This document shows positions 517 to 62,909 of a stretch of 64,000 nucleotides of DNA, piece after piece. The position numbers and the translations under genes were made by a program. Numbering within the stretch: the stretch's first letter is position 1; every line of letters starts with the position of its first letter. Below the pieces are notes generated by a model that made no database searches, was not told the origin of the DNA, and saw nothing but the letters and a program-made list of their open reading frames with translations. The stretch is taken from positions 434,001-498,000 of the forward strand of contig NZ_NCJH01000001.1 in assembly GCF_002278925.1 (NCBI RefSeq), read 5' to 3'. The DNA is from Polaromonas sp. 39-63-25 (GTDB lineage Bacteria; Pseudomonadota; Gammaproteobacteria; Burkholderiales; Burkholderiaceae_C).

Positions 517-2013
517 CTAACCGGCGCTTGCCGGGAGCCGCTCGAACACGGCCATCGATTCCACATGCGCGGTGTGCGGAAACATGTTGACCACACCGGC
601 CGCCGTGCAGCGGTAACCCGCGTCATTCACCAGCACGCCCGCATCACGCGCCAGCGTCGCCGGATTGCAGCTGACATACACGATGCGCTGCGGTGGCATC
701 CAGTCGCCGATCTGCAGGTTTTGTTGCCCGCCGGCGTCATCACAAGGCACGCCCGTGACGATCTGCTGGTGCAGCGCGGCCAGCGCCTTGAACAGCTCGA
801 ACGCACCTTCGCGAGGTGGATCGACCAGCCACTTGTCGGCGGCGCCGTCCTTGACCAGCATGCCGGGGCTGATCTCGAACAGGTTGCGCGCTACAAATTT
901 GGTAGCTGCCAGCGCCCGCCCCTTCTGGGCTGAGGCCTTGTTTGATGCATAGTTTTCGCGCGAGCGGGCGACCAGCACCTCGCTGCCCTCGATGCCCAGC
1001 ACCTCGCGCGCCTGGGTGGCCAGCGGCAAGGTGAAATTGCCGAGCCCGCAAAACCAGTCGATCACGCGCTCGTGCGCCTGCACGCCCAGCAGGCGCAGCG
1101 CGCGCGACACCAGCACCTGGTTGATCTGCGGGTTGACCTGGGTGAAGTCGGTCGGCTTGAAGGGCATGGTGATGCCGTAGTCGGGCAGGCCGTAGGCCAG
1201 CTGCTGCGAAGGATCGCTCACCTCGTCGAGCAGCCTGACCGTCTCCAGCCCGCCGGGCTGCAACCACCACTGCAGGCCGGGATGGGCCAGCGCAAAAGCG
1301 CGCAGCCTGTCCAGGTCGCCGCCGGACAGCGGCTCCATGTGGCGCAGCACCATGGCCGTCACCGTGTCGCCACAGGCCAGCTCGATCTGCGGCAGGGTTT
1401 CCTTGGCGTCCATGCCGGCGATCAGCGCGCGCAGCGGCAGCAGCAGGTCGCTGACATGCCGGGGCAACACGTGGCACTCGCGCATGTCGGCGACATAACC
1501 ACTCTTGCGCTCATGAAAGCCCACCAGCACCTCTCCCTTCTTGCGCACAAAACGCACCGACAGGCGGGCCCGGTAGCGGTAATTCCAGGCCGGGCCTTCA
1601 ATCGGCCTGAGCACCATGTCGGCCTTGAGCTTGCCGATGTGCCAGAGGTTGTCTTCCAGCACACGCTGCTTGACGGCCACCTGCGCGCCCACCTGCAGGT
1701 GCTGCATCTTGCAGCCGCCGCAGGCGCCGGTGTGCAGGCCGAAGTGCGGGCACTGCGGACGCACGCGCTGCGAAGACTCGTGCAGCACCGCCATCAGCGT
1801 GGCTTTCTCGAAGCTCGGTTTCTTGCGGTAAACGCTCGCGCTGACGGTCTCGAAGGGCAAGGCGCCTTCGATGAACACCACCTTGCCGTCGTCCCGGTGC
1901 GCAATGCCCTGGGCTTCGATGTCGAGCGACTCGACGGTGAGCACATCGGGCGGGTAGTCGGTTGGCGCGGGGGCCGGCTGGTGCTGCGGCTGCTGGTGTT
2001 TTCTTCTGGACAT
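517..2013 (-). CDS. rlmD: 23S rRNA (uracil-C5)-methyltransferase RlmD (RumA family)
   Basis: This 498-residue enzyme would methylate U1939 of 23S rRNA using SAM and carries a [4Fe-4S] cluster. Visible are a short TRAM-like beta domain ([26 protein letters not shown]), cluster cysteines in [14 protein letters not shown] with a further Cys in MRECHVLP, the SAM motif [16 protein letters not shown], and the catalytic motif [14 protein letters not shown] chose the start MSRRKHQQ at 2013: the frame stays open 44 codons upstream, but that part runs into a repeat and has no family similarity. Oddity: residues about 354-374, between ENYASNK and [10 protein letters not shown], are encoded by a copy of repeat A (890-950). 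This replaces the short turn seen in the E. coli protein. Confidence 0.93.
890..950 (+). repeat. repeat A copy 1, in frame inside rlmD (antisense to the gene)
   Basis: The 17-nt core at 890-906 (GCTACAAATTTGGTAGC) is followed by AGCGCCCG, a second 17-nt hairpin (GCCC-N9-GGGC), GAGGCC and a TTTGATGCAT end. Copy 2 at 2654-2714 has the same 61-bp length and the same TTTGATGCAT end. It is read in the rlmD frame as [17 protein letters not shown]. Confidence 0.8.
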
Positions 2014-2050
2014 CCCCCATTGTCTCAGGCCTGTACTGCAGCCCGGAAGT

Positions 2051-2178
2051 AGCGAAACATAATGAAAGTGATGACTTCGTGCCCAGGGCAAGGCGCAAGC
2101 CGCAGCGAAGGCTGTACGCCTTCGCAAGGATTGCAACGCCGCCATGGGTGCGAAGGCGCGCTTTCATGTTTCGATATT
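2051..2178. repeat. MITE-like imperfect palindrome, about 125 bp, between rlmD and the VOC gene
   Basis: The left end AGCGAAACATAATGAAAG (2051-2068) matches the reverse complement of the right end CTTTCATGTTTCGATATT (2161-2178), apart from a 3-nt gap. The pairing continues inward (GACTTCGTGCCCAGGGC with the reverse complement of GCCATGGGTGCGAAGGC) to a central hairpin GCGAAGGC/GCCTTCGC near 2105-2125. No protein is encoded. It fills most of the 2014-2240 intergenic region. It resembles a non-autonomous mobile palindrome; only one copy is in the window. Confidence 0.6.
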
Positions 2179-2240
2179 TTCGGGTTCCAGTACCAAGTTA
2201 CCATTTTCGGCTGAGCCAACAGACGGACAAGGAGGACCTC

Positions 2241-2666
2241 ATGGAGATACGCATCTGCATCGACGTGAACGACATGGAACGCGCCGTCGCGTTCTACACC
2301 GAAGGACTCGGCCTGCACTGCGGCCGGCGCTTCCAGAGCGGCTTTGTCGAGTTGCTGGGCGCGGGCAGCCCGATCGACCTGCTGCTGCAAACCGAAGGCA
2401 GCCGCCCGTTGCCCGGCAGCGCCGCCACGCGCAGCTACCAGCGCCACTGGACACCGGTGCACCTGGACTTTGTGGTGGACGACATCGACGCCGCCGTGAG
2501 CCGGCTGCTGCAGCACGGCGTCGTACTCGAGCAGCCGGTGACAGACCGCGTCTGGGGCCGCATCGCCGGGCTGGCCGACCCGTTTGGCCACGGCATTGAC
2601 CTGTTGCAGTTCACCGGCCGCGGTTATGACGAGATCCCCACCGGCCAGGATTCGCTACCAAGCTGA
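2241..2666 (+). CDS. VOC-family (glyoxalase/bleomycin-resistance-like) protein
   Basis: This 141-residue protein has two beta-alpha-beta-beta-beta halves typical of vicinal oxygen chelate proteins: MEIRICIDVNDMERAVAFYT at the N-terminus, VHLDFVVDDIDAAVSRLLQ near residue 74, and LADPFGHGIDLLQF near 115. The substrate cannot be told from sequence. The start at 2241 follows GGAGG at 2231-2235. A longer open frame upstream runs through a repeat and was rejected. The last codons (SLPS then TGA) lie in the core of repeat A copy 2, so the C-terminus is repeat-derived. The gene is convergent with nlpD. Confidence 0.8.
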   Translation: MEIRICIDVNDMERAVAFYTEGLGLHCGRRFQSGFVELLGAGSPIDLLLQTEGSRPLPGSAATRSYQRHWTPVHLDFVVDDIDAAVSRLLQHGVVLEQPVTDRVWGRIAGLADPFGHGIDLLQFTGRGYDEIPTGQDSLPS

Positions 2667-2714
2667 TAGCAGCTTGCGCCCGCCGAACAAGGGCTGGCGG
2701 CCAATTTGATGCAT
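2654..2714 (+). repeat. repeat A copy 2, supplying the stop codon of the VOC gene
   Basis: Core GCTACCAAGCTGATAGC at 2654-2670, then AGCTTGCGCCCG, a second hairpin GCCC-N9-GGGC ending in AAGGGC, TGGCGGCC, and the TTTGATGCAT end at 2714. The TGA stop of the VOC gene (2664-2666) is inside the core. Confidence 0.85.
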
Positions 2715-2737
2715 CAACGGGCTGCCACCGGGTCATG

Positions 2738-2760
2738 AAAAAAGCCCTGCATGCAGGGCT
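2738..2760 (-). terminator. intrinsic terminator of nlpD
   Basis: The 16-bp palindrome GCCCTGCATGCAGGGC (2744-2759), extended by one A-T pair, is followed on the minus strand by a run of T residues (A-tract 2738-2743 on the plus strand). It lies 25 bases after the nlpD stop. Confidence 0.85.
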
Positions 2761-2784
2761 TCTTGGTTCGCGGCGGTGGTCCGC

Positions 2785-3798: not shown

Positions 3799-4671
3799 TC
3801 AGCTGGTTCCCGATTTTAAAGGTACAAAGTGCACGGCCTCCAGAACAGTCTGTGTAACACCGTTCGCCGTCCTGTCAAGCACCACCAGCGCCTGGGCACC
3901 GCCGGCCACATGCATGGGCGCCACCAGGCGCCCGCCGACCGCGAGCTGTTCGACCCAGGCCGGGGGAATCGCCTCGCCGCCAGCCGCCGCAATGATGGCC
4001 GCGTAAGGCGCGCCCTTGGCATAACCGGCCATGCCGTCACCAAACAGCAGGTGCACATTGGCCAGGCGAAAGGCCCGCAAATTCTCGCGCGCCTTGTCGT
4101 GCAGCCCGCGCAGGCGCTCGATGCTGTAGACCTCGGCGGCGAGCTGTCCCAGCAATGCCGCCTGGTAGCCGCAGCCGGTGCCGATTTCCAGCACGCGGCC
4201 CAGCTTGCCGTCGGTGCCGCCAGCGCCCTGGCGCAGCAGCTCGAGCATGCGGGCCACCACATTGGGCTTGGAAATCGTCTGGCCCAGCCCGATCGGCAGG
4301 CTGGTGTCTTCATAAGCCTGGTTGACCAGCGCCGTGTCGACAAAGCGGTGGCGCTCGACATGGCCCATGGCGGCGAGCACCTGGGCGTCCGAGATGCCCT
4401 GTGCCGCCAACTTGCTGACCATGCGCGTACGCACCGCCCTGGAGTCCAGACCGACACCGCTCGTCAGCACGGTCTTGGCCGGTTTTTTGGAGTCAAAAAT
4501 GCCTGAATCCCTTTCCGGATGGGCGCGGCCAGCTATCTTTTTGGTAGCAGATGGCGTGCCGGCATCGGGCTCGAGACGCACCGGAAAGCCCGGCCGCCGG
4601 GCCGGCGTAACGCCGGCCGCATTGGCCGCCGCAGCGGTCGGCTTGAAGGAAGGCTTCAGCGGGGACTTCAT
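3799..4671 (-). CDS. pcm: protein-L-isoaspartate O-methyltransferase
   Basis: Pcm repairs damaged proteins by SAM-dependent methylation of L-isoaspartyl residues. At 290 residues it is about 80 longer than E. coli Pcm because of a basic, low-complexity N-terminal extension. The core starts near residue 70 (RTRMVSKLAAQGI) with HRFVDTALVNQAYEDTSLPIG, GQTISKPNVVARM and the SAM motif VLEIGTGCGYQAALLGQL. The ATG overlaps the surE stop (ATGA, 4668-4671), which fixes this start and implies translational coupling. Residues about 41-61 of the extension are encoded by a copy of repeat A (4488-4548), so the insertion lies outside the catalytic fold. Confidence 0.93.
   Translation of the reverse strand: MKSPLKPSFKPTAAAANAAGVTPARRPGFPVRLEPDAGTPSATKKIAGRAHPERDSGIFDSKKPAKTVLTSGVGLDSRAVRTRMVSKLAAQGISDAQVLAAMGHVERHRFVDTALVNQAYEDTSLPIGLGQTISKPNVVARMLELLRQGAGGTDGKLGRVLEIGTGCGYQAALLGQLAAEVYSIERLRGLHDKARENLRAFRLANVHLLFGDGMAGYAKGAPYAAIIAAAGGEAIPPAWVEQLAVGGRLVAPMHVAGGAQALVVLDRTANGVTQTVLEAVHFVPLKSGTS
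4488..4548 (-). repeat. repeat A copy 3, in frame inside the pcm N-terminal extension
   Basis: Read on the minus strand: core GCTACCAAAAAGATAGC (4548-4532), then GCGCCC-N8-AAAGGGATTCAGGC and a T-rich end. It is translated in the pcm frame as ATKKIAGRAHPERDSGIFDS. Confidence 0.8.
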
Positions 4672-14506: not shown

Positions 14507-14633
14507 GGCCTGATTTTGACATGCGCGGCGCCGGACCGAACGGGCGGGCCATCAGCACCCGGCAAATACCGCCGCTTTGCCCCACTTTCACACCGCTTCG
14601 TGGCGCAAATACGTCTCAGGCCACGATCCGGGT

Positions 14634-16568
14634 TCAGTGCAGCGCGCGGTAGATTTCTTCGGCGAGCTCGCGGGAAATGCCCTCCACCGTGGCAATGTCC
14701 TCGGCGCTGGCCGAACTCACGCCGCGTATGCCGCCGAAACGCTGCAGCAGGTTGGCGCGCTTTTTGGGGCCAATGCCGGCGATGTCTTCGAGGCGGCTGG
14801 CACCCACGCGCACCTTGGCGCGTCTGGCGCGCATGCCGGTGATGGCAAAACGATGGGCCTCGTCGCGGATCTGGGCAATCAGCATCAGTGCCGCCGAGTC
14901 GCGACCCAGATAGACCTTCTCGCGGCCGTCGGCAAAAACCAGCTCCTCGAGCCCAACCTTGCGCCCCTCGCCTTTCTCGACGCCGGCGATCAGCCCGAGG
15001 TCCAGGCCAAGCTCCTCAAACACCTCGCGCGCCATCGACACCTGGCCCTTGCCGCCGTCGATCAGCACCAGGTCCGGCAGCCGGGCCGTGTTGTTGCGCG
15101 CCGCTTCGGCGAGCTTGCTGTAGCGGCGCATCAGCACCTGGCGCATGGCGGCGTAGTCGTCGCCCGGCGTGATGCCCTCGATGTTGTAGCGGCGGTATTC
15201 GGCACTTTGCATCTTGTGGCCATGGAACACCACACACGATGCCTGGGTCGATTCACCGGCCGTGTGCGAAATGTCGAAACACTCGATGCGCAGCACATCG
15301 AGCTTGTCGAGCGGCAGGTCCAGCGCCTCGGCCAGCGCGCGCGTGCGCGCCTGCTGCGAGCCCTGCTCGGCCAGCAGCCGGGCCAGTTGCAGGTCGGCAT
15401 TGGTCTGCGCCATCTCGAGCCAGATGCGGCGCTGCTCGCGCGGCTGGTGGATGGCCGTGACCTTGTTGCCGGTCTGCATGATCAGCGCGGCGATCAGTTC
15501 CTTGTCCACCGGTTCGCTGCAAACCAGCACCGGCGGCACCGGCACGTCCACATAGTGCTGGGCGATGAAGGCTTCCAGCACCAGGGCTTCGAGTTTTTTG
15601 ACCTTGCCGGGCAAGACGCCCTGAGCGCCCTCACCGCCTGCCGCGCCGCCGTCCACATCGTCCTCCTCGAGCCCGGCCAGGTCGGCCGCGTGTTCGACAT
15701 GGGTGGGGAAATACGGCCGGTCGCCGAGGTGACGGCCGCCGCGCACCATGGCCAGGTTCACACAGGCCTTGCCGCCCAGCACCTTGACCGCCAGGATGTC
15801 CACGTCCTTGTCGCCACCGATTTCCATGGACTGCTGGTGCAGCACCTTGGACAGAGCCGAGATCTGGTTGCGCAGTTCGGCCGCCTGCTCGAACTCCAGC
15901 TTTTCGGCGCGGCTCCGCATCTGCTTTTCCAGCTCGGTCAGGATGTCCCCGGCCTGGCCCTGCAGGAAACGCTCGGCGTTGGCCACGTCCAGCGCGTACT
16001 GCTCGGGCGATACGTGGCCCACGCAGGGTGCGGAGCAGCGCTTGATCTGGTACAGCAGGCAGGGCCGGGTTCGGTTGTTGAACACCGTGTCTTCGCAGGT
16101 GCGCAGCTTGAATACCTTCTGCAGCAGCAAAATGGTTTCCTTGACCGCCCAGGCGCTGGGGTAAGGCCCGAAGTAGCGGTGTTTCTTCTCCACCGCGCCG
16201 CGGTAGTAGGCCACGCGCGGAAAGTCGTGCGACGCGAGCTTGAGGTAGGGGTAACTCTTGTCGTCGCGGAACAGGATGTTGTACTTCGGGTTCAGCGTCT
16301 TGATCAGGTTGTTTTCAAGCAGCAGCGCCTCGGCTTCGGAGCGCACCACGGTGGTTTCCATGCGGACGATCTTGGTCACCATGTGGCCGATACGCGTGCC
16401 GCCGTGGTTTTTCTGGAAGTAGGTGGAGACCCGTTTCTTCAGGTCGCGCGCCTTGCCGACATACAGCACCGCACCCTCCGCATCGAAGTAGCGGTAGACG
16501 CCGGGCATGGCCGGCAGCGCCGCCACTTCACTGAGCAGCTGGGGATCAAATTCGTGCGATGGGGTCAT
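14634..16568 (-). CDS. uvrC: excinuclease ABC subunit C
   Basis: UvrC makes both incisions in nucleotide excision repair. Domains in this 644-residue protein: N-terminal GIY-YIG nuclease ([33 protein letters not shown]), a Cys-containing region ([18 protein letters not shown]), UVR motif near residue 200 ([20 protein letters not shown]), an RNase H-like endonuclease domain ([35 protein letters not shown]), and a C-terminal helix-hairpin-helix pair ([20 protein letters not shown]). I chose MTPSHEFD at 16568; an upstream ATG at 16607 is possible and neither has a clear ribosome site. A Gly/Asp-rich loop ([17 protein letters not shown], about residues 304-320) looks like a lineage-specific insertion. 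Confidence 0.95.
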
Positions 16569-16664
16569 GGTGGTGGGTGCGCGTGTTTGGCCGGCGTGGG
16601 CCGTCATGCGGAAGAAGTATCGGCATTTCTGGCTGGCAGCCCCCGTATTGTGGACAATCCCGAT

Positions 16665-17789
16665 ATGGATCATCGCCCGCAATGGGACATTTTTTGCAAA
16701 GTCATCGACAACCACGGTGACATCGGCGTCTGCTGGCGGCTCTGCGCGCAACTTGCGGCGCGCGGGCAGCGCGTGCGGCTGTGGGTGGACGATGCATCCG
16801 CCCTGCACTGGATGGCACCCGAAGGCTGCGACGGCGTCACCGTCCTGCCCTGGCTGGAACCGCTGGGCATGAACATCCTGCGCCTGGAAGCCGCCCCCTG
16901 CGAGGTGCTGGTGGAGGCCTTCGGCTGCGAAATAGCTCCTGAATTCATAGCTGCCTGCGCAGACAGGGAAAGGGCTACAGGCCTGAAACCTGTATGGATC
17001 AACCTCGAATACCTGTCCGCCGAGCCCTGGGTGGAGCGCTGCCATGCCCTGCCCTCACCGGTGCAGCGCGGCCCGGCCGCCGGCTGGACCAAATGGTTTT
17101 TCTACCCCGGTTTCAGCGCCGCCACCGGTGGGCTGCTGCGCGAGTCCGCGCTGGCGGCGCGCCAGGCGGCCTTTGACCGCAAAGCCTGGCTGGCCGGGCG
17201 CGGCATGGCGTGGAACGGCGAGGTGCTGGTGTCGCTGTTTTGTTATGAGCCCCCTGCCCTGGCGCAGCTGCTGGACCACCTGGTGCAGGCGGGCACGACC
17301 GCCACGCCGGTGCACCTGCTCGTGACCGCGGGCCGCGCCACAGCCGCCGTGCAGGCCGCCGTTCAAGATAAAAAGTGGCCACAGCCCAACAAGGACGGGC
17401 GCGAGCCGCTATCAATTTCATACCTGCCCTGGCTGCGCCAGGACGACTTCGATCACCTGCTCTGGGCCTGTGACCTGAACTTTGTACGCGGCGAAGATTC
17501 GGTGGTGCGCGCGCTCTGGGCCGGCCAGGCCTTTGTCTGGCAGATTTATCCCCAGGCCGACCAGGCCCACCAGGCCAAGCTGCAAGCCTTTCTCGACATG
17601 CTGCAGGCGCCGCCCTCGCTGCGGCGTTTTCATGAAGTGTGGAACGGCCTGCAGGGCCAATTGCCGGAACCCGAGCTGCCGCTGTGGACCGGCTGCGCCC
17701 GCGCGGCCCGGCAGCGCCTGCAGCAGCAACCCGACCTGGTCACCCAGTTGCTGGCCTTTGTCATGCAGAAACAGGGGGCGACGCCATGA
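16665..17789 (+). CDS. earP: EF-P arginine rhamnosyltransferase EarP
   Basis: EarP transfers rhamnose from dTDP-rhamnose to Arg32 of elongation factor P, which relieves ribosome stalling at polyproline. The 374-residue GT-B protein starts with [20 protein letters not shown]; Asp15 and Asp19 here correspond to the catalytic Asp pair. [19 protein letters not shown] and [20 protein letters not shown] (about residue 275, nucleotide-sugar site) complete the signature. Two copies of repeat A are translated inside it, at residues about 90-110 (sense) and 233-253 (antisense). The stop overlaps the next gene by 4 nt. The target gene efp lies 4 kb downstream. Confidence 0.93.
16935..16995 (+). repeat. 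repeat A copy 4, in frame inside earP
   Basis: Core GCTCCTGAATTCATAGC (16935-16951), then TGCCTGCGC, GGGAAAGGGCTACAGGCC and an end GTAT at 16995. Length 61 bp, as in copies 1 and 2. Translated as [19 protein letters not shown]. Confidence 0.8.
17364..17424 (-). repeat. repeat A copy 5, in frame inside earP (opposite orientation)
   Basis: On the minus strand: core GGTATGAAATTGATAGC (17424-17408), CGCGCCCG, a second hairpin GCCC-N9-GGGC, TGTGGCC and a T-run. Read in the earP frame as [19 protein letters not shown]. Confidence 0.8.
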
Positions 17790-29989: not shown

Positions 29990-30110
29990 AGGGCTCTTTC
30001 TGTAAAAAAAATGGAAACTGCGCTGTTTGGCGCCAACCCCTGACTTTACCCGCAAGTAGCAACCCAGAGGCGGGTTAAGGACGCTGGCGTGGAGCCTTCC
30101 CATACAAGCA

Positions 30111-30200
30111 GGGGCCGCGGATCTGGCTCTGCCAGTCCGCAGGCGCAGCGGCCCCCTCGGGGGGCAGGGAGCTACACGCAGTGAGCGACCGTGGGGGCCA
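30111..30200 (-). repeat. repeat B copy 1, just after the nitroreductase gene
   Basis: About 90 bp, oriented with the minus-strand gene. In that sense it reads GCCCCCACGGTCGCTCACTG, GTAGCTCCCTG, the hairpin CCCCCC-GA-GGGGGC, then TGCGCCTGCGGACTGGCAGA and GCCAGATCCGCGGCCCC, which forms a second hairpin. It starts one or two bases after the stop. The rest of the 29990-30201 gap holds an AACCCGC/GCGGGTT dyad and nothing else recognised. Confidence 0.8.
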
Positions 30201-30201
30201 T

Positions 30202-31346: not shown

Positions 31347-31392
31347 GGAGAGCTATTTTGCCAGCAGGCCAGCGGCATTCTTCCGTCGAGTC

Positions 31393-31482
31393 GGGGCCGC
31401 GGGTCTGGCTTCGCCAGCCCGCAGGCGCAGCGGCCCCCTTGGGGGGAAGGAAGCTACACGCAGTGAGCGACCGTGGGGGCCA
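31393..31482 (-). repeat. repeat B copy 2, encoding the end of the deacetylase gene
   Basis: Nearly the same sequence and orientation relative to the gene as copy 1. Here the stop codon of the gene (31454-31456) lies inside the repeat. Codons for the last nine residues MAPTVAHCV come from the repeat's GCCCCCACGGTCGCTCACTG segment. Confidence 0.85.
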
Positions 31483-32413
31483 TCTTCCAGCGTTTCCAGT
31501 ACTCGATCGCGACGCTGTAGGTATTCATCTGCACCTGCACCGTCTCGTCGATGTTGATGCCGTAACCGCCGGCCATGGCGAAGGCCAGCGGAATGCGGCG
31601 TTGCCAGGCCCAGTCAAACACGCGTCGGTCCCTGGCCTCCAGGCCGTCATAACTGAGCTTGAGCCGCCCCAGCCGGTCCCCTTCGAACGGGTCGGCGCCA
31701 GCCAGATAGATCACCAGGCCTGGCTCGAAGCGCCGTTCCAGCTCGTCGAGCGCGTGTTCCAGCGCCTGCAGGTAGGGCGCATCGGTGCAGCCGTCCGGCA
31801 GGTCCACGTCGAGGTCGCTCGCCTCCTTGCGAAAGGGGAAATTCTTTTGCCCATGCAGCGACAGCGTAAATACACCCGGATCGCTTCTGAAAATGCTGGC
31901 CGTCCCGTTGCCCTGGTGCACGTCCAGGTCGATGATCACCACCCGCAGCGGCGTGTATTGGCTGCGTGCCCACTCCATCTGCATCTGGCGAGCCGCGACG
32001 GCCGCATCGTTGAACACACAAAAGCCCCCACCCTTGCCTGCAGATGCATGGTGGGTGCCGCCGGCCATGTTGGCGGCCACGCCTTCGGCACGACCCTGCA
32101 GCCCCAGGGCAGCACGTGCCGCCGCCACCGTGGCACCCACCGACCGGCGTGAACGCTCGACCATCTCCGTGCTCCAGGGGAAGCCGATCTCGCGCATGGC
32201 CGCGGCATCCAGCGTGCCGTCGGCCACGGCCTGGATGTAGGCCGGTGCGTGCACCAGCGCCAGCTCGCCGTCGCTGGCCCGCGGTGCCACGCCCATGCGC
32301 ACCTGCGGCAACTCGCCGGCCACGCGATCACGCAGGCGCTGGTATTTGGCCATCGGAAAGCGGTGCCCGGCCGGCAAGGGCAGGACAAAGTGATCAGCAT
32401 AGAAAGCTTGCAT
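31454..32413 (-). CDS. histone deacetylase-like (AcuC/class II) zinc amidohydrolase
   Basis: A 319-residue member of the arginase/deacetylase fold. Catalytic His pair in MAGGTHHASAGKGGGFCVFN, zinc ligands Asp and His in VVIIDLDVHQGNGTASIF and the third Asp in VIYLAGADPFEGDRLGRLKL; the GGYG loop is in AFAMAGGYGIN. It could deacetylate acetyl-lysine, acetyl-CoA synthetase or acylpolyamines; the bacterial substrate is not predictable. The C-terminal nine residues are encoded by repeat B and are unlikely to be part of the fold. Confidence 0.86.
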   Translation of the reverse strand: MQAFYADHFVLPLPAGHRFPMAKYQRLRDRVAGELPQVRMGVAPRASDGELALVHAPAYIQAVADGTLDAAAMREIGFPWSTEMVERSRRSVGATVAAARAALGLQGRAEGVAANMAGGTHHASAGKGGGFCVFNDAAVAARQMQMEWARSQYTPLRVVIIDLDVHQGNGTASIFRSDPGVFTLSLHGQKNFPFRKEASDLDVDLPDGCTDAPYLQALEHALDELERRFEPGLVIYLAGADPFEGDRLGRLKLSYDGLEARDRRVFDWAWQRRIPLAFAMAGGYGINIDETVQVQMNTYSVAIEYWKRWKMAPTVAHCV

Positions 32414-34145: not shown

Positions 34146-34254
34146 GTCCGGCGGGGTTCCAGGCCCCTCCCCTTGACAGCGCCTGGCCCTCCGGCAGGCG
34201 CCTCTGCGCCTCCCGCCTCTCAACAGGGCGGGCGCTAGAGCTTGATCTCTAAAA

Positions 34255-34327
34255 TGCTGCACTGCAACAAAAATCGCTTGCAATCGTGCGCCTGATCCCT
34301 ATACTTGAGTTATGTTGCAGTGCAGCA
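34255..34327 (+). promoter_or_regulatory. phasin promoter flanked by paired PhaR-like sites
   Basis: TGCTGCACTGCAAC (34255-34268) is the exact reverse complement of GTTGCAGTGCAGCA (34314-34327). Between them lies a promoter: -35 TTGCAA (34278-34283), 16-bp spacer, -10 TATACT (34300-34305). TGCAGC-rich dyads of this kind are bound by the PHB-responsive repressor PhaR in related bacteria. The rest of the 34146-34407 gap holds no gene. Confidence 0.7.
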
Positions 34328-34407
34328 ATCGACAAGACAAGCCCAACAGCAGATTGTCCGGCAGCGCAACTAATTGAATTCTTAACCCACTTATTGGAGA
34401 TTTAAAT

Positions 34408-34950
34408 ATGTTGACCGCTGAACAAATCATGGCTTCCCACAAAGCAACCGTTGAAACCCTGTTTGGTCTGACCAGCAAGGCTTTCGAAGGCGTCGAGAAA
34501 CTGGTTGAACTCAATGTCCAGGCTTCCAAGGCTGCCCTGGCTGAAACCGCCAACCACACCCAGACCCTGCTCGGCGCCAAAGACGCCCAGGAACTGCTGG
34601 CCCTGCAAGCCAGCCTGATGCAGCCCCTGGCTGAAAAAACCGCTGCTTACAGCCGCCACCTGTACGACATCGCCACCGGCACCGGTGCTGAAGTCGGCAA
34701 GGCCTTCGAAGGCCAGGCTGCCGAAGCCCAGGCTAAATTCATGGGCCTGGTTGACAGCGCCGCCAAAAACGCACCGGCCGGTTCCGAGTCCGCTGTGGCC
34801 GTGATGAAAAGCGCCGTGGCTGCCGCCACCAACGCTTTCGAGTCGGTCCAGAAAGCCGTCAAACAAGCCAGCGACATGGCCGAAGCCAACCTCACCGCGG
34901 TGACCAACACCGCCGTGAACGCCACCAAAACCGCTTCCAAAAAGCGTTGA
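34408..34950 (+). CDS. phaP: phasin family protein (PHA granule-associated)
   Basis: A 180-residue, Ala-rich, all-helical protein: [60 protein letters not shown], and a Lys-rich end TKTASKKR. This is the standard betaproteobacterial phasin_2 layout. Phasins coat polyhydroxyalkanoate granules and set their size. The ribosome site is TTGGAGA. The promoter carries paired PhaR-like sites. An intrinsic terminator lies about 175 bp downstream. Confidence 0.92.
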
Positions 34951-35124: not shown

Positions 35125-35152
35125 GCCTGATCGCAAGATCGGGCTTTTTTTT
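35125..35152 (+). terminator. intrinsic terminator downstream of phaP
   Basis: The stem GCCTGATC-GCAA-GATCGGGC (35125-35144, with one G-T pair) is followed by eight T residues. It is distant from the phaP stop (175 nt); nothing coding lies between. Its T-run abuts the end of repeat A copy 6. Confidence 0.8.
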
Positions 35153-35211
35153 GGCCAAAAAAGGCCTTGAGCCCTTGCTGGTCGTCCGTACGCAGCTATC
35201 AAAAACAGAGC
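35151..35211 (-). repeat. repeat A copy 6, directly after the patatin gene
   Basis: Minus-strand core GCTCTGTTTTTGATAGC (35211-35195), then a tail with CCAGCAAGGGCTCAAGGCC and a T-rich end. The core begins two bases after the patatin stop codon. Confidence 0.75.
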
Positions 35212-37289: not shown

Positions 37290-37380
37290 CGCCCCCACGT
37301 TCGCTCGCTTCGCGTAGCTTTCTGCCCCCCGAGGGGGCGCTGCGCCTGCGGGCCGGCAGAGCCGGACCCGCGGCCCCCGC
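37290..37380 (+). repeat. repeat B copy 3, directly after futA
   Basis: GCCCCCACGTTCGCTCGCTT, GTAGCTTTCTG, hairpin CCCCCC-GA-GGGGGC, TGCGCCTGCGGGCCGGCAGA and GCCGGACCCGCGGCCCC. The orientation follows the gene, as for copies 1 and 2, and it begins at the base after the TAA. It is GC-rich with two strong hairpins and no T-run. Confidence 0.85.
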
Positions 37381-37462
37381 TTGAAAAGAGAGCACCCCGT
37401 TCATCGAAAAGCCCGGTTCGCCGGGCTTTTTTATGGGTGATTTTTATGCGTGATAATTGCCA

Positions 37463-38300: not shown

Positions 38301-38361
38301 GCTATCGTATTGATAGCTACTTGCGCCCACTCCGCCTGGGCTGAAGGCCGATCTGACTGAA
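38301..38361 (+). repeat. repeat A copy 7, downstream of the SDR gene
   Basis: Core GCTATCGTATTGATAGC (38301-38317), TACTTGCGCCC, second hairpin GCCC-N9-GGGC, TGAAGGCC. It lies 13 bases after the SDR stop in gene orientation. Confidence 0.88.
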
Positions 38362-38479: not shown

Positions 38480-40360
38480 ATGAAAACCATCGCCCCTGCG
38501 TTCATGTTCAAGCGAGCCGCTGTCCTGTCTCCCCTGTCCGGCTTGGCTCTGGCCGCCGCCCTGCTGGTGGCCGGCTGCGCCACGGCCCCGCCCTTCGCCT
38601 ACAGCGTGCCGGCGCAGCCCGAAGGCACGTCGGGCTACACCGAAAAACCCGGCTGGGCGAACGCGAGTTTTGCCGTCGCCGCGGCCAACCCGCTGGCCAC
38701 CGATGCCGGCTACCAGGTGCTCAAGGCCGGCGGCTCGGCGATCGACGCGGCGATTGCCGTGCAGATGGTGCTCGCGCTCGTCGAGCCGCAATCGAGCGGC
38801 ATAGGCGGCGGCGCTTTCCTGCTGCATGCCAGCGGCAGCAAGGTCGAGGCTTTTGACGGCCGCGAAACCGCGCCGGCGGCCGCTGACGAAAAACTCTTTG
38901 TCGGCGCCGACGGCAAGCCCATGGCCTTCATCGACGGTGTGGTCGGCGGCCGGTCGGTTGGCGTGCCGGGCACGGTGCGCATGCTGGAGATGGCGCACAA
39001 GCAGCACGGCAAGCTGCCCTGGGCGCAGCTGTTCGTGCCGGCCATCACGCTGGCCGAGGGCGGCTTCAAGGTCAGCGCCCGCCTGGCCACCCTGCTGAAA
39101 ACCGAGCAACACCTGAAAAAAGACCCGGTCGCCGCCGCCTACTTTTACCAGCCCAATGGCGAGCCGCTGGCCGCCGGCAACCTGCTGCGCAACCAGCCGT
39201 TGGCCGATGTCCTGAAAAAAATCGCTGCGGGCGGCTCCAAAGCACTGCTCGAGGGCGACGTCGCCCAGGCCATCGTGACCAAGGTGCAAGGCCACCCGAC
39301 CAACCCCGGCAAGCTGAGCCTGGCCGACCTGGCCGGCTACCAGGCCAAAAAACGCGAGCCGATCTGCCACGACTACCGCGCGCAGGCACGCGACTACCGC
39401 ATCTGCGGCATGCCGCCGCCCAGTTCGGGCGCGATTGCGGTCGGGCAGATCCTGGGCATCCTGAACCACACGCCTGCGGCAACGCTGGCCCTGGACACCG
39501 GCATGGGCGGCACGCCCGGGACCACAGGCGCGGCACCGTCGGCCGACTGGCTGCACTTGTACACCGAAGCCTCGCGCCTGGCCTTTGCCGACCGCGCGCA
39601 GTACCTGGGCGACCCCGACTTCGTGCAAGCGCCGGGCGGCAACTGGATGAGCCTGCTGGACCCGGCCTACCTGGCCGAACGCGCGAAGCTGATCGCCACG
39701 CAGCCCGGCGGACAAAGCATGAAGGTCGCCAAACCGGGCACACCAGGCGGCACGCGCCTGGCTTATGCCCCCATGCCCGAGCAGCCCGAATACGGCACCT
39801 CGCACATCAGCATCGTCGATGCGTATGGCAACGCGATTGCGATGACCACCACGATCGAGGACGCTTTCGGCGCGCGCCAGATGGTCAGGGGTTTCCTGCT
39901 GAACAACGAGCTGACCGATTTCAGCTTTGCGCCCACCGATGCCGATGGCAAGCCCGTGGCCAACCGCGTGCAGCCGGGCAAACGGCCGCGCTCGTCGATG
40001 GCGCCCACCCTGGTGTTCGACAAGGCCTCCGGCCAGCTCGTGATGAGCGGCGGCAGCCCGGGCGGCGCGCTGATCATCCACTACACCGCCAAGACGATCT
40101 ATGGCGTGCTGAACTGGGGAATGATGCCGCAGCAGGCCATCAACCTGCCCAACTTCGGCTCGCTCAACGGCCCGACCCTGCTGGAAGAAAAACGCTTTGC
40201 ACCGCCCACCGTCGAGGCGCTGAAAGCCCGCGGCCATGAAGTGCGCGAGATGACCATGACCAGCGGCCTGCAGGCGATCACCCGCGGCCAAGCGCACGGC
40301 AAGCCGCTGTGGCTGGCCGGCGCCGACCCGCGCCGCGAAGGCGTGGTCATGGGAGATTGA
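38480..40360 (+). CDS. ggt: gamma-glutamyltransferase (lipoprotein form)
   Basis: A 626-residue Ntn-hydrolase that cleaves glutathione and transfers gamma-glutamyl groups. The signal ends in a lipobox (LLVAGC-AT), so it is likely membrane-anchored rather than free in the periplasm. Domains: GGSAIDAAIAVQMVLALVEP, SSGIGGGAFLLHASGSKVEA, then the autocleavage site with Thr in YGTSHISIVDAYGNAIAMTT, and KRPRSSMAPTLVF, GGSPGGALIIHY. The start at 38480 follows GGAGAAG; an ATG at 38444 lacks the signal. Repeat A copy 8 begins at the stop codon. Confidence 0.94.
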   Translation: MKTIAPAFMFKRAAVLSPLSGLALAAALLVAGCATAPPFAYSVPAQPEGTSGYTEKPGWANASFAVAAANPLATDAGYQVLKAGGSAIDAAIAVQMVLALVEPQSSGIGGGAFLLHASGSKVEAFDGRETAPAAADEKLFVGADGKPMAFIDGVVGGRSVGVPGTVRMLEMAHKQHGKLPWAQLFVPAITLAEGGFKVSARLATLLKTEQHLKKDPVAAAYFYQPNGEPLAAGNLLRNQPLADVLKKIAAGGSKALLEGDVAQAIVTKVQGHPTNPGKLSLADLAGYQAKKREPICHDYRAQARDYRICGMPPPSSGAIAVGQILGILNHTPAATLALDTGMGGTPGTTGAAPSADWLHLYTEASRLAFADRAQYLGDPDFVQAPGGNWMSLLDPAYLAERAKLIATQPGGQSMKVAKPGTPGGTRLAYAPMPEQPEYGTSHISIVDAYGNAIAMTTTIEDAFGARQMVRGFLLNNELTDFSFAPTDADGKPVANRVQPGKRPRSSMAPTLVFDKASGQLVMSGGSPGGALIIHYTAKTIYGVLNWGMMPQQAINLPNFGSLNGPTLLEEKRFAPPTVEALKARGHEVREMTMTSGLQAITRGQAHGKPLWLAGADPRREGVVMGD

Positions 40361-40419
40361 GTATAAAAAGTGGCTGCAGCCCTTCTCTAGCGGGCACAAG
40401 CAGCTATTTTTTTGGTAGC
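40359..40419 (-). repeat. repeat A copy 8, supplying the stop codon of yihY
   Basis: Minus-strand core GCTACCAAAAAAATAGC (40419-40403), TGCTTGTGCCCG, second hairpin GCCC-N9-GGGC, TGCAGCC, T-rich end. The yihY stop TAG (40406-40404) and its last codons ALPKK are in the core. Confidence 0.88.
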
Positions 40420-41329: not shown

Positions 41330-41390
41330 CAAGATCAAATAAGCCTCAATCCCTTGCCAGACATGCGCAAGCAGCTATCTTCTTGATAGC
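41330..41390 (-). repeat. repeat A copy 9, between yihY and the acyl-CoA ligase gene
   Basis: Minus-strand core GCTATCAAGAAGATAGC (41390-41374), TGCTTGCGC, GGCAAGGGATTGAGGC, then TATTTGATCTT. Wholly intergenic. Confidence 0.88.
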
Positions 41391-43143: not shown

Positions 43144-45111
43144 GTGGCCATTCCCCAATCATTCATCCAGGAACTGCTGGCGCGCGCCGACGTGGTGGAC
43201 ATCGTCGGGCGTTACGTCCAGCTCAAAAAAGGCGGCGCCAATTTCATGGGGCTGTGCCCCTTCCACGGCGAAAAATCGCCCTCCTTCAGCGTCAGCCCGT
43301 CCAAGCAGTTCTACCACTGCTTCGGCTGCGGCAAAAACGGCAATGCCATCAGCTTTCTGATGGAGCACGGCGGCATGACCTTCGTTGAGGCCGTGAAGGA
43401 CCTGGCCCAGCAATACGGCCTGCAGGTGCCCGAAGACGACGTCTCGCCGCAGGAGCGCGCCCGTGCCGCCCAGGCGCGCGAGCAGCAGGCCACCCTCACC
43501 AGCGTGCTCGAAAAAGCCGGCATCGCCTACATCAAGCACCTGCGCAACGCGCCGCGCGCCATCGACTACCTCAAGGGTCGCGGCCTGTCGGGCGAAATCG
43601 CCAAAACCTTCGGCCTCGGCTACGCGCCCGAAGGCTGGCGCGCGCTGGCCAGTGTGTTCCCCGACTACAACGACCCGCTGCTGGTGGAAAGCGGCCTGGT
43701 CATCACCGGTGAGCCTGGCGAGGAAAATGCCCAAGGCGAAGCCAAGCGTTACGACCGCTTCCGCGACCGCATCATGTTTCCGATCCGCAACGTCAAGGGC
43801 GAATGCATAGGTTTCGGCGGGCGTGTGCTGGGCGACGAAAAACCCAAGTACCTGAACTCGCCCGAAACCCCGGTGTTCAGCAAGGGCCGCGAGCTCTACG
43901 GCCTGTTCGAGGCGCGCACCGCGCTGCGCGAACACGGCTACGCGCTGGTCACCGAAGGCTACATGGACGTGGTGGCGCTGGCCCAGCTCGGTTTTGCCAA
44001 CGCCGTGGCCACCCTGGGCACGGCCTGCACCGCCGACCATGTGCAAAAGCTGTTCCGCTTCACCGAGTCGGTGGTCTTCAGCTTTGACGGCGACAGCGCC
44101 GGCCGCCGGGCCGCGCGCAAGGCGCTGGACGCCGCCCTGCCCTTTGCCACCGACGTGCGCACCGTCAAGTTCCTGTTCCTGCCGGCCGAACACGACCCCG
44201 ACAGCTACATCCGCGAACACGGCCAGGAAGGCTTTGCGGCCTATGTCGCCAAGGCCGTGCCGCTGAGCAAATTCATGCTCGACGCCGCCGGCGAAGGCTG
44301 CGACCTGGATACCGCCGAAGGCCGCGCCCACATGGCCAGCAATGCGCGTCCGCTGTGGAGCCTGCTGCCCGACGGCACACTCAAGCACCAGTTGCTCGCC
44401 GAGATCGCCGACACCGTGCTGATCGACAGCCGCGAACTGCTGCAGATCTGGCAACCGGCCGCGCCGCACTATAAAAACAGTAGCAACTCGCGAACACAGG
44501 GAAAGGGCCAGCGGCCAAAAGCGCCTGAATATGCCGACGCCGTTCCGCATTTCGAGGAGTTTTCCGGCAACTTTGCCGACTTGCACGATGAAGGCGCTTA
44601 TGCCGCGTCGCTGCCCGCCCCGTCGTCGGCGGGCGGGTCTGCCGGCCGCAGCTTCGGCGCCAAGCCAGGTGCCAGCCGCCCGCCGCGGCGCATCGCGGGG
44701 CGGGTGTTGCCGGCCGGCCGCGAAGACCGGGTGCTGCGGCTGATGCTGACCGACCCGCAAAGCTGGGACAAGCTCAGCGGGGAAGAACACGTGCTGCTGT
44801 CGGAACTGCCGGCGCCGCACGGGCCGCTGTTTGTCTGGCTGGAGAGCCAGCTGCACGAACACGGGCCGCAGCCCTGGGCAGCCCTGCGCGAAGGGCTGCG
44901 CGAACACCCCCAGGAAAAATACGCGGTGGACCAGATCGCCCAGCTTCACGAGGGCATCGAGTGCGACTGGAACGAGGTCCGCGCCATCCTGGACCAGCTC
45001 CTCAAGCTCAAACGCCAGCAGGAAATGGTCGATTTGCTGCCCCGGGTGCTGGCCGACCCGGCGGCCAGGCAGCGTTACGAAGAGTTGTCCGCCCTGCTGA
45101 AAAATAGCTGA
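43144..45111 (+). CDS. dnaG: DNA primase
   Basis: DnaG makes RNA primers for replication. This 655-residue protein has an N-terminal zinc finger (LCPFHGEKSPSF, YHCFGCGKNGNA, about residues 37-62), a catalytic core with PIRNVKGECIGFGGR, and the TOPRIM motifs LVTEGYMDVVALAQLGFANA and FSFDGDSAGRRAARKAL. The C-terminal helicase-binding region starts near residue 520. The start is a GTG at 43144 (VAIPQSFIQ, the common beta-proteobacterial N-terminus); in-frame ATG codons at 43087 and 43120 are less likely. Residues about 441-461, in the linker before the helicase-binding part, are encoded by repeat A copy 10. Confidence 0.94.
   Translation: MAIPQSFIQELLARADVVDIVGRYVQLKKGGANFMGLCPFHGEKSPSFSVSPSKQFYHCFGCGKNGNAISFLMEHGGMTFVEAVKDLAQQYGLQVPEDDVSPQERARAAQAREQQATLTSVLEKAGIAYIKHLRNAPRAIDYLKGRGLSGEIAKTFGLGYAPEGWRALASVFPDYNDPLLVESGLVITGEPGEENAQGEAKRYDRFRDRIMFPIRNVKGECIGFGGRVLGDEKPKYLNSPETPVFSKGRELYGLFEARTALREHGYALVTEGYMDVVALAQLGFANAVATLGTACTADHVQKLFRFTESVVFSFDGDSAGRRAARKALDAALPFATDVRTVKFLFLPAEHDPDSYIREHGQEGFAAYVAKAVPLSKFMLDAAGEGCDLDTAEGRAHMASNARPLWSLLPDGTLKHQLLAEIADTVLIDSRELLQIWQPAAPHYKNSSNSRTQGKGQRPKAPEYADAVPHFEEFSGNFADLHDEGAYAASLPAPSSAGGSAGRSFGAKPGASRPPRRIAGRVLPAGREDRVLRLMLTDPQSWDKLSGEEHVLLSELPAPHGPLFVWLESQLHEHGPQPWAALREGLREHPQEKYAVDQIAQLHEGIECDWNEVRAILDQLLKLKRQQEMVDLLPRVLADPAARQRYEELSALLKNS
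44468..44528 (+). repeat. repeat A copy 10, in frame in the dnaG linker
   Basis: Core ACTATAAAAACAGTAGC (44468-44484), AACTCGCG, GGGAAAGGGCCAGCGGCC, AAAA. More diverged than other copies but with the same spacing; the GGGAAAGGGC block is shared with copy 4 in earP. Translated as YKNSSNSRTQGKGQRPK. Confidence 0.7.
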
Positions 45112-47886: not shown

Positions 47887-47928
47887 AACGCCCCGGCCCG
47901 CCCACAGCGGTCCGGGGCGTTGTTTTTT
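47887..47928 (+). terminator. intrinsic terminator of rpoD
   Basis: The stem AACGCCCCGG (47887-47896) with CCGGGGCGTT (47912-47921) and a 15-nt loop is followed by a six-T run. Confidence 0.88.
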
Positions 47929-47988
47929 GTGCATGGAACGAGCTGCAGCCCTCATGGGTTGGACCTGGGGCGCTTCATAAAAGATAGC
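47928..47988 (-). repeat. repeat A copy 11 (diverged), after the rpoD terminator
   Basis: Minus-strand core GCTATCTTTTATGAAGC (47988-47972), a GC-rich stretch, then GAGGGCTGCAGCTC as in the GGGCTGCAGCC of copy 8. The spacing is right but several positions differ and the second hairpin is poor. Confidence 0.5.
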
Positions 47989-51457: not shown

Positions 51458-51518
51458 TTCAGTAAAACAGGCCGCTAGCCCTTATGGATAAACCGCAGGG
51501 AGCTATCAATACAATAGC
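51458..51518 (-). repeat. repeat A copy 12, between convergent LysR and aldo/keto reductase genes
   Basis: Minus-strand core GCTATTGTATTGATAGC (51518-51502), a TCCCTGCGG segment, ATAAGGGCTAGCGGCC and a T-rich end. It fills the 81-bp convergent gap. Confidence 0.85.
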
Positions 51519-59704: not shown

Positions 59705-59785
59705 GGCAGTCGGTCAGCGTGGAGGGTCATGCGATTGATTGTGACGACGGCCCTGCCTCCCGCCAAGGCAGCGCGGTTTCTAGCT

Positions 59786-59823: not shown

Positions 59824-59865
59824 CATTCAGGACAACTACAGGACAACCCGCCACCCTTCCCCGTC

Positions 59866-60798: not shown

Positions 60799-60803
60799 CC
60801 CGG

Positions 60804-61691
60804 TTACTGCAACAGCCGGTCCGCGTAGTCCTGCCAGCGGGCGTCCTTGCCCAGACCGGCAAACACACCGGCCCGGGCCTGGTCGGCCACCCACTGCTGC
60901 TTGTCGGCAATCGCCGACGCCATGAAAGGCTCGAAGCCGCCGCCGGCCTCGCGCACGGTGTTGGCCGCCTCGCGCATTTCCTCGGCACGGCGCTGGCCGT
61001 GCTGCACCACCCGGCTGAAAAAGTAGGCGCCCTGCTTCTCCCAGTCGATGCTGGGGAAGGTTTCGGCCAGCGTCGGCAACACGTGGTCCTCCACGCCGTA
61101 GGCACGGGCCGTGGTGTAACTCTCGATCACCAGCGCCTCCAGGCCCTTGATCATCACGCTGCGGCACATCTTGATGGCGCTGGCCACGCCCAGCTTTTCG
61201 CTGACCGCCTTCGCATCCATGCCCCAGGCCATGAACACGCCGGCCAGTTCAGCCGCACGCGTGCCGCCCAGCAGCATGGGCACCTGGATGCCATAAGGCG
61301 GCACCGAGGTCATCACACCGGCTTCGACATAGTGCCCACCCGCCGCATCAATCAGGGCCGCGGCCTGCTGCTTGGTACCGGGTGAGGCGGAATTGAGGTC
61401 CAGAAAAACCGTGCCGCGCCGGACATGGGCGGCGGCGGCCTGCGCGACCGCCAGCGTGTTGGACGCCGTGACCGCAGAGATGATCAGGTCAGCCCGCCCG
61501 CACAGCGCCGCCATGGACGCGCACGCCGCCACACCGGCCTGCGCCGCATGGGCACGCTGCGCCTCGCGCAGGGCCGGTGCCTCGAAGGTGAGGTCCCAGG
61601 CGCTGATGCCCGCCACCCTGTCCTTGAGGCCGGCGGTGAAAATTTTTCCGACCTCGCCGTAGCCGATCATGCCGATATGTTCAAACTTCAC
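60804..61691 (-). CDS. NAD(P)-dependent oxidoreductase, 6-phosphogluconate dehydrogenase-like (DUF1932 type)
   Basis: A 295-residue beta-hydroxyacid dehydrogenase-like protein. N-terminal Rossmann motif IGMIGYGEVGKIFTAGL, RGTVFLDLNSASPGTKQQAA (substrate loop), GVASAIKMCRSVMIKGLEAL with the catalytic Lys, and a C-terminal domain as in DUF1932 proteins. The start is a GTG at 61691 with AGGAGAAA upstream. It is convergent with the LysR gene and in a gene set for aromatic acid use; a role in a side pathway is inference. Confidence 0.78.
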   Translation of the reverse strand: MKFEHIGMIGYGEVGKIFTAGLKDRVAGISAWDLTFEAPALREAQRAHAAQAGVAACASMAALCGRADLIISAVTASNTLAVAQAAAAHVRRGTVFLDLNSASPGTKQQAAALIDAAGGHYVEAGVMTSVPPYGIQVPMLLGGTRAAELAGVFMAWGMDAKAVSEKLGVASAIKMCRSVMIKGLEALVIESYTTARAYGVEDHVLPTLAETFPSIDWEKQGAYFFSRVVQHGQRRAEEMREAANTVREAGGGFEPFMASAIADKQQWVADQARAGVFAGLGKDARWQDYADRLLQ

Positions 61692-61751
61692 GGATGTTTC
61701 TCCTGCTTTTTCTGCTTCACCTGCGGCCGACCGGTCGCTTCATGAACGTCA

Positions 61752-62717
61752 TTACTGAGTCGGAATCCTGGCGCGCCGGATCACCTCGCCCCAGCGCCTG
61801 GTTTCACCGGCCAGCAGTTCGGCGGCCTGTTCGGGCGAACTGCCGCGCGCTTCGACGTTGAGCTCGGCCAGCTTCCTGCGGACCTCCGGCGCGTTGACGG
61901 CGGCCACCACTTCGCGGTTCAGCCGGGCGATCACGGCGGGCGGCGTCCTGGCCGGCGCGGCCAGCGCGTTCCAGCTGGAGGCCACAAAGGTGGGCAGGCC
62001 GCTTTCCCTGGCCGTCGGCACCTCGGGCAGCACCGCGGCACGCCTGTCGCCGGTGACAGCCAGCGCACGCAGGGCACCGGCCCGGATCTGCGGCAGGATG
62101 GGGCCGAGGATTTCCACGGCAGCATCGATCTGGCCGCCAAGCAGGGCCGTGACCACCGCCGGCGTGCCGTTGAACGGAACAATCTGCACGTCGGCGCCGG
62201 AGCTGATCTTGAACAATTCGGCCGCGAGGTTCTGCGTGCTGCCGATGTTGATGCTTCCAAGGTTGAGTTTGCCGGGGTTGGCCTTGGCAAAAGCCAGCAG
62301 CTCGCCCAGGGTCCTGAATTTCGAATCGGCGGGGGTGACCACGGCGATGTCAAAAAAGCCCAGCGTGGAGACCGGCGCGAAGTCGCGCACCGCATCAAAC
62401 GGCAGCGACTTGAACAAACCCGCACTGACCGCCGTGCCATTGGACATCAGCAGCAGGGTGTGGCCGTCGGGCTGCGCCCTCGCCACCATCTCGCCGGCCA
62501 CCACGCCGCCGGCACCGGGCTTGTTGTCAACCAGCACCGGCTGGCCCAGCGACTCGCTGAGTTTTTGCGCCACCGTGCGCGCGGTCAGGTCGGCCACGCC
62601 GCCGGCCCCGAAAGGCACCACGATCCGGACGGGTTTGCTCGGGAAGGTTTGTGCCGCGGCCAGCGAAGCCAGCAGCAGGGAGGCCAGAAGACCGGTGGCA
62701 AGGCGTTGAAAAGTCAT
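61752..62717 (-). CDS. Bug-family (tripartite tricarboxylate) periplasmic binding protein
   Basis: A 321-residue extracytoplasmic receptor: signal peptide ending SLAAAQT, FPSKPVRIVVPFGAGGVADL, TARTVAQKLSESLGQPVLVD, NKPGAGGVVAGEMVARAQPD and LNLGSINIGSTQNLAAELFK. Such receptors bind carboxylates, including terephthalate (TphC) in Comamonas. TctA/TctB partners are not nearby. The start at 62717 matches the signal peptide; the frame is open further upstream. Confidence 0.9.
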   Translation of the reverse strand: MTFQRLATGLLASLLLASLAAAQTFPSKPVRIVVPFGAGGVADLTARTVAQKLSESLGQPVLVDNKPGAGGVVAGEMVARAQPDGHTLLLMSNGTAVSAGLFKSLPFDAVRDFAPVSTLGFFDIAVVTPADSKFRTLGELLAFAKANPGKLNLGSINIGSTQNLAAELFKISSGADVQIVPFNGTPAVVTALLGGQIDAAVEILGPILPQIRAGALRALAVTGDRRAAVLPEVPTARESGLPTFVASSWNALAAPARTPPAVIARLNREVVAAVNAPEVRRKLAELNVEARGSSPEQAAELLAGETRRWGEVIRRARIPTQ

Positions 62718-62848
62718 GTGGGTGTCCCGTGTGTCGTATCGCTGGTAACGGGGCATTTTGGCGTATACCGCGCTGCACCGAAAGCGGCCCCGCCTTCTGG
62801 CAGCCATCACAAACAGGCCTGAAGGGTGCAGCCGGCTTTGTAAAAATA

Positions 62849-62909
62849 ATGAGCCCAAAGTGGCCCCGGCCCATCACAGCCGGGCGCAGGCAGCTATTGA
62901 TTCAATAGC
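62849..62909 (-). repeat. repeat A copy 13, between TRAP and Bug genes
   Basis: Minus-strand core GCTATTGAATCAATAGC (62909-62893) with perfect 8-bp arms, TGCCTGCGCCCG, second hairpin GCCC-N9-GGGC, GGGGCC and a T-rich end. The two T-A changes in the arms are compensatory relative to GCTATC/GATAGC. The remaining 62718-62934 gap shows nothing else. Confidence 0.88.

Follow-up and report, generated by a model that had tools for sequence, protein, structure and literature searches.

Rickettsia palindromic elements (RPE) are palindromic repeats that are read in frame within genes. Uptake sequences, according to passages of PMC1939737, lie to 35-65% in open reading frames (ORFs), are in excess in non-coding DNA and show no orientation bias. 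Excerpts of PMC5217627 (2017) describe a motif pair, ATAGCT(N)22CAAAAG, in Polaromonas naphthalenivorans CJ2 and another, GCTTAT(N)5AAGCG, in Acidovorax ebreus; of the 125 copies of the former, 101 are intergenic, 18 genic and 6 overlapping, and 34 stand between convergent genes. The Burkholderiales genus names looked for occur 0 times in the sections available of PMC3733652, which deals with repetitive extragenic palindromic (REP) sequences, bacterial interspersed mosaic elements (BIME) and REP-associated tyrosine transposases (RAYT). Here, we analyzed a 64-kb window (positions 434,001 to 498,000 of contig NZ_NCJH01000001.1) of the 4.83-Mb genome of Polaromonas sp. 39-63-25, which carries an interspersed element of about 61 bp that had been described as a REP-like repeat with two hairpins. 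The spacing of the P. naphthalenivorans pair, as excerpted, equals that of model columns 13-18 and 41-46 of this element. In the relatives fetched (G and L numbers denote genomes and loci), the same pair occurs at four places, one each in G235, G256, G230 and G247, all in the register of the element and with position weight matrix (PWM) scores of 30-49.

We read the element as a long, loosely conserved double-stranded DNA signal for a putative trans-acting factor, kept in place, with a probability of about 55%. A cell factor of this kind would recognize the element in either orientation, and the copies would be kept in place, and at least some of them built there, through selected substitutions or biased recombination and not through insertion. 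A genome with an active factor would be expected to carry hundreds of copies about 6 kb apart, mostly between genes and also in housekeeping genes, in frames that permit them; loss or alteration of the factor would make the copies fade together.

The element is abundant. A covariance model of 12 window copies detected at least 150 copies genome-wide, and 76 in the 464 kb formed by the window and contig C31:1-400000, equivalent to one per 6.1 kb. Using a PWM built from 47 intergenic copies (3 of 50 were left out), 78 positions in the same 464 kb scored at least 25, whereas neither a single Markov-2 shuffle nor the reversed sequence gave any, an excess over shuffled sequence that had been set as a test beforehand. 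A separate 400-kb stretch of contig C52 contained 53 copies at a PWM score of at least 20 (reversed control, 0), and extrapolation yields a genome total of about 790 from the 464-kb stretch or about 640 from C52. The closest rlmD sequences agree with the genus Polaromonas, one from a Polaromonas metagenome-assembled genome being 97% identical. Within the genus, 14 of the 18 other Polaromonas genomes searched have copies at an E value of 1e-4, and across the family, with 26 candidates scored per genome, 65 of the 200 genomes, from 45 of the 126 genera, gave matches at 1e-5. This bears out the expectation of a widespread, dispersed, palindrome-bearing repeat family among relatives named as Comamonadaceae, and 12 genomes from 12 other families of the order contained no copies at 1e-4. 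Genus dialects are visible in columns 26-29; in a test on the rlmD copy (5 of 62 hits excluded for length), the PWM of its own genus gave the best score in only three of five genera, and one of the three was nearly tied.

Within the window, 12 of the 13 copies originally listed stood where they had been placed, and the layout given for them (a 17-nt core, then a TGCTTGCGCCCG-like sequence, GGGC, GGCC and a T-rich end) is correct. Leave-one-out scores of these 12 copies range from 21.0 to 55.8 bits, against a best score of 16.7 in the control (for each copy, five windows shuffled by a Markov model and scanned on one strand), and cmsearch scores from 42.8 to 66.5 bits with the model built from the same 12. 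The remaining copy, at 47928-47988, scored as background (leave-one-out 1.6 bits, rank 17; cmsearch 7.2 bits; intergenic-copy PWM 6.0) and was rejected. Each accepted copy below was identified by both leave-one-out scoring and cmsearch.

890-950, + strand: copy within an rlmD-like gene (- strand, about 517-2145); leave-one-out 48.4 bits, cmsearch 61.7 bits; retained in orthologues
2654-2714, + strand: copy overlapping the end of a glyoxalase-like gene (2241-2666)
4488-4548, - strand: intergenic copy, also present in three close relatives
16935-16995, + strand: copy in the earP-like part of gene 14577-17789, in the gene's own orientation; kept in G014, z 1.7 in G253
17364-17424, - strand: second copy in gene 14577-17789, in the opposite orientation; ungapped against EarP 5nv8
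35151-35211, - strand: intergenic copy, compared among relatives
38301-38361, + strand: intergenic copy, 14 nt past a gene end
40359-40419, - strand: copy between convergent genes, slightly overlapping both gene ends
41330-41390, - strand: intergenic copy flanked by two - strand genes
44468-44528, + strand: copy within dnaG (43144-45111), past the DnaB_bind Pfam match (residues 376-424); leave-one-out 21.0 bits, cmsearch 42.8 bits
47928-47988, - strand: claimed copy, rejected by leave-one-out, cmsearch and PWM (background score)
51458-51518, - strand: copy between convergent genes
62849-62909, - strand: intergenic copy

The location of several copies within genes (890, 16935, 17364 and 44468) is a point absent from the original prediction. 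Over the 64 positions of the model built from the 12 copies, the motif holds about 50 bits (0.775 bits per position). Conserved columns at 2, 3, 15-17, 24, 25, 38-41, 46, 48, 52 and 53 look like sequence recognition. The GCTAY-N7-RTAGC core rarely stands alone, 44 of its 46 sites belonging to full copies. No Rfam family matches the element, and only two tRNAs were found in the window at the gathering threshold. Gene 14577-17789, which holds two copies, is predicted to encode 1070 aa, and its only solved-structure matches (EarP) span residues 696-1062; its N-terminal portion may reflect an ORF that was called too long.

Maintenance at the DNA level is clearest in rlmD, for which 80 orthologues were chosen by protein and not by the element model, and each footprint was compared with synonymous recodings that follow the gene's own codon usage. 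The footprint is nearer to the element than the recodings (z above 2) in 59 of the 80, with a mean z of 3.63 compared with -0.13 for neighboring control footprints. For the two earP sites, dnaG and aroE, z exceeds 2 in 22 of the 28 orthologues tested (5 of 33 were excluded for footprint gaps); the others are earP-1 in G253, dnaG in G230 and G247, and aroE in G239, G242 and G018. G018 has no match at 1e-4 genome-wide, and G242 none in 25.5 kb. Genomes behave in a near all-or-none manner: among 50 of the rlmD genomes (every one of the 21 whose z did not exceed 2, plus 29 more), at least 35 scored copies are present in 28 of 29 with retention, compared with 2 of 21 without (Fisher 1.3e-10, kinship uncorrected).

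Constraint is also seen copy by copy. Among 29 orthologous intergenic copy-genome pairs, mismatches affect 17 of 434 core positions (3.9%), 139 of 547 variable positions (25.4%) and 431 of 3469 flanking positions (12.4%), and among 14 in-gene pairs, 4 of 210 core and 38 of 266 variable positions; the 15 core columns were picked by conservation among the genome's own copies, and anchoring failed for 42 of the 85 copy-genome pairs that were possible. Because core columns are kept copy by copy and at synonymous sites across genera, and because copies fade jointly, the element does not appear to be a passive relic of insertion. Recognition by a trans-acting factor with lineage-specific loss would explain the kept cores, the synonymous retention and the joint fading.

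Gene calls came from a simple purpose-made gene finder, so that gene starts are approximate. By these calls, predicted genes contain 26 of the 76 copies in the 464 kb (14 running with the gene, 12 opposed to it) and 26 of the 53 copies in C52. The genes concerned include rlmD-like, earP-like (two copies), dnaG, aroE, trpF, murJ, murG, pdxJ, RNase E/G, hemD and dapF-like genes. Copies opposing the gene share one frame in 11 of 12 cases (one shifted by a hit 1 nt shorter), while copies in the gene's direction take offset 0 (eight), offset 1 (five) or offset 2 (one); where the consensus stem has an in-frame TAG stop, the five offset-1 copies all carry GAG. The same pattern of frames is seen in C52, where a single frame holds 12 of 15 opposing copies, and offset 0 holds 8 of the 11 that run with the gene. 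Stop codons alone are insufficient to account for the choice of frame, since intergenic copies are open in opposite offset 1 (20 of 50) as often as in offset 2 (18 of 50).

Residence in genes in recurring open frames is what would be expected of an in-frame inserting element like RPE, whose copies diverge later. This explanation was favored at first and was dropped after comparisons of rlmD, aroE and solved homologues. When 11 in-gene sites in 10 genes were each compared with the best solved homologue, the 20-21 extra residues expected of a whole-element insertion were found at none. At trpF, earP copy 2, pdxJ and a HAD-like gene (for which the hit was partial, 42 nt), the footprint matches the homologue in length; a hydroxyisobutyrate dehydrogenase-like gene falls short by one residue and murG by two, so that six sites have no extra residues or fewer, besides aroE. 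There the footprint is also of equal length, and a 9-residue gap directly before it, which takes in its first residue, speaks for insertion. Longer footprints do occur, by about 2 residues in a metallo-beta-lactamase-fold gene, 4 at earP copy 1, 8 at rlmD (compared with E. coli) and 13 in an aconitase-like gene, the last three being the lengths that an inserting element could best claim. Among 11 anchored relatives, aroE spacing is the same in 10, seven with the element and three without; the exception, G268, has 24 nt more and no element. In-gene copies that align gaplessly with distant homologues, as in trpF and pdxJ, have no extra length and so cannot owe their origin to an inserted element, and the four genes compared at the end (hydroxyisobutyrate dehydrogenase-like, pdxJ, murG and HAD-like) support an origin in place. 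In addition, retention of DNA at synonymous sites is unexpected for a neutral relic, and no clean empty sites with target duplications were found among the relatives compared. An RPE-like origin is therefore considered distinctly unlikely.

At rlmD itself, the region spans 56 and 54 residues in two genomes of the same family, compared with 48-49 in 27 of 28 from other families and 53 in one. Comamonadaceae RlmD thus has an extension of about 7-8 residues relative to other Burkholderiales families and E. coli, and it overlaps the element at about 890-950 of the window.

The layout of palindromes located at gene ends had suggested a REP-like, non-autonomous element moved by the genome's RAYT (Y1/HUH), which would now be old and mostly vertical in descent. 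As originally noted, the window contains no RAYT: the only Y1 transposase match in the genome at an E value of 0.01 lies on contig C32, where a single RAYT-like gene (C32:171163-171489; L034:1168-1866, - strand) encodes 232 aa and matches NF047646 at 87.8 bits. That gene gives the transposase explanation its source, and no copy of the element was found within its 3.3-kb locus. Nor was any copy found at an E value below 0.17 at 31 RAYT loci from 30 genomes (L034 and L191 being the same gene), of which only the 10 genomes that were element-rich in the 200-genome survey provide a real test. RAYT matches are present in 147 of the 200 family genomes, usually one per genome, whether or not the element is present. 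Mobilization by RAYT seemed supported when all 42 genomes with at least 10 scored copies were found to carry one, compared with 105 of the 158 others, a co-occurrence that could reflect shared ancestry. That support did not hold in the 50-genome set reached via the rlmD loci, where RAYT occurs in 27 of 30 element-rich and 18 of 20 element-poor genomes; three of the rich genomes lack a RAYT, and metagenome-assembled genomes (MAGs) can be incomplete. Transposition also fits poorly with in-gene copies that were not inserted and with core columns that are maintained. The lagging-strand bias expected of HUH elements is weak (a strand walk along the 149 best copies of G119 gave P 0.08), although C31 alone has 45 copies on the + and 19 on the - strand; the counts in C52 are 31 and 22. 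The suggested movement by RAYT thus lost its footing, and we give it little credence.

Linked changes in the hairpin arms had likewise been taken as selection on pairing, and this did not survive a larger sample. Pairing in the 12 window copies equals that of shuffles, and among 18 pairs tested in 70 ungapped copies (6 of 76 hits without 64 nt were excluded), only pair 21-46 exceeds independence, and weakly (P 0.024 for any pair, P 0.002 for Watson-Crick); several of the tested stem pairs are invariant and therefore uninformative. Positions 5 (T or C) and 13 (A or G) vary independently of each other. The idea that both hairpins are kept by base pairing was accordingly rejected, covariation being absent in 12 as well as 70 copies.

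Stems without covariation also bear on the possibility of a transcription terminator or mRNA-stabilizing hairpin at gene ends, which drew on placement. Copies are much denser between genes than within them (9.3 versus 0.63 per 10 kb in the window and C31), often lie within 30 nt of a stop codon (464 kb), and occupy convergent gaps in C31 and the window 20 times against 8.5 expected by base pairs. The independent C52 stretch shows no such excess (8 versus 6.8; pooled 28 versus 15.3, P 3e-4), and copies occur in both orientations within housekeeping genes. A role in termination or mRNA stability is the least probable of the explanations weighed.

Spacing is more even than chance in both stretches: the coefficients of variation (CV) are 0.71 and 0.73, with P values of 0.0035 and 0.016 when the stricter of the two null models of placement is applied. 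The idea that in-gene copies stand in the gaps left by intergenic ones was rejected (for CV, P 0.076 and 0.025; for distance, not significant). Even spacing of about 6 kb in either orientation, positional conservation, the dialects in columns 26-29 and loss together with the genome-wide set would suit a binding site of a chromosome-organizing or nucleoid protein, a sub-version of the signal reading. The information content is high for one protein, however, and, taken as a separate proposal, such a site is rather doubtful. About 90 kb at C52:1-90000 (L278-L282) contains 0 copies, starts with a Tn3 family transposase and has catabolic genes among the ten proteins named; it is likely an acquired island, whose lack of copies fits a chromosome-organizing site without requiring one.

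Returning to the maintained DNA signal as a whole, candidate roles can be ranked provisionally: in first place a signal of the DNA-uptake type that spreads by transformation, followed closely by a chromosome-organizing site, which would account equally well for spacing and orientation. The element resembles uptake sequences in its genome-wide over-representation (78 versus 0 positions) and its non-coding excess (9.3 versus 0.63 per 10 kb).

Several observations weigh against a maintained signal. Intermediate copies are few (83 positions at PWM 10, 78 at PWM 25), fewer than a gradual build-up should leave. The roughly 50 bits spread across 64 positions far exceed known uptake sequences, which, according to passages of PMC1939737, are 10-29 bp long and not palindromic. 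G230 has lost the dnaG copy, as has G247, yet has copies elsewhere, and four genomes depart from the rlmD rule: L065 (103 copies), L117 (44) and L068 (15) lack retention, and L069 (6) shows it. Extra residues are present at rlmD (8 relative to E. coli, 7-8 relative to other Burkholderiales), in the aconitase-like gene (13) and at earP copy 1 (4), and intergenic sites without a copy are in some cases shorter (by 101 and 167 nt, for instance), so that insertion may contribute to some copies.

A broader proposal is held more tentatively, at somewhat less than even odds: that the element is a Comamonadaceae-wide signal of about 61 bp with a lineage-specific factor and genus dialects, kept by selection or transformation-driven recombination, including at synonymous sites (rlmD, aroE, trpF, earP and dnaG), and gained or lost by whole genomes. 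If this is true, its length would be unusual for an uptake-type or chromosome-addressing signal and, to our knowledge, greater than in those so far recognized. A REP-looking repeat can, on this reading, be a maintained DNA signal that shapes housekeeping codons across a bacterial family. Uptake and chromosome organization are testable candidates, with natural loss-of-signal controls in sister species. Palindromic repeats should not be taken as RAYT products without a position-by-position test.

Two further features of the window are recorded here. A second, GC-rich repeat family of about 90 nt occurs at 30105-30201, 31386-31483 and 37291-37384, with two direct copies that are 92% alike and one inverted; going by the excerpted description in PMC3110155, it is possibly the BRE repeat. 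An inverted repeat at 34240-34342, with 36-nt arms 31 nt apart, contains TGCAGTGCAGCA, lies just upstream of a phasin gene (Phasin_2, 34408-34950) and looks like a putative regulatory site.

Compared with described systems, the element shares with BRE of Betaproteobacteria, as outlined in parts of PMC3110155, a presence in Polaromonas and relatives and a partly genic location; BRE is about 90 bp, 69% GC in Bordetella and arranged in tandem arrays, and the two are set apart by description only. With RPE, it shares palindromic structure and in-frame residence within genes, although several in-gene element copies are not insertions. Like REP/BIME with RAYT in the available sections of PMC3733652, it is a dispersed palindromic repeat between genes; unlike them, it shows no RAYT association in the 50-genome set and no covariation, measures 61 bp and has maintained genic copies. 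The uptake sequences of Neisseriaceae and Pasteurellaceae (DUS and USS), in the passages of PMC1939737, resemble it in having many copies, a third to two thirds of them in ORFs, with a non-coding excess, permissive coding sites and a core with weaker flanks, whereas the element, known here from sequence alone, is about 61 bp and 50 bits, palindromic in its first half and present once per 6 kb. A search of open-licence papers returned, among the best matches listed, no description of the element beyond PMC5217627. That paper, in the portions consulted, gives statistics for the motif pair and leaves its function open; the full element, its evolution in place, codon retention, spacing and family-wide distribution do not appear in those portions.

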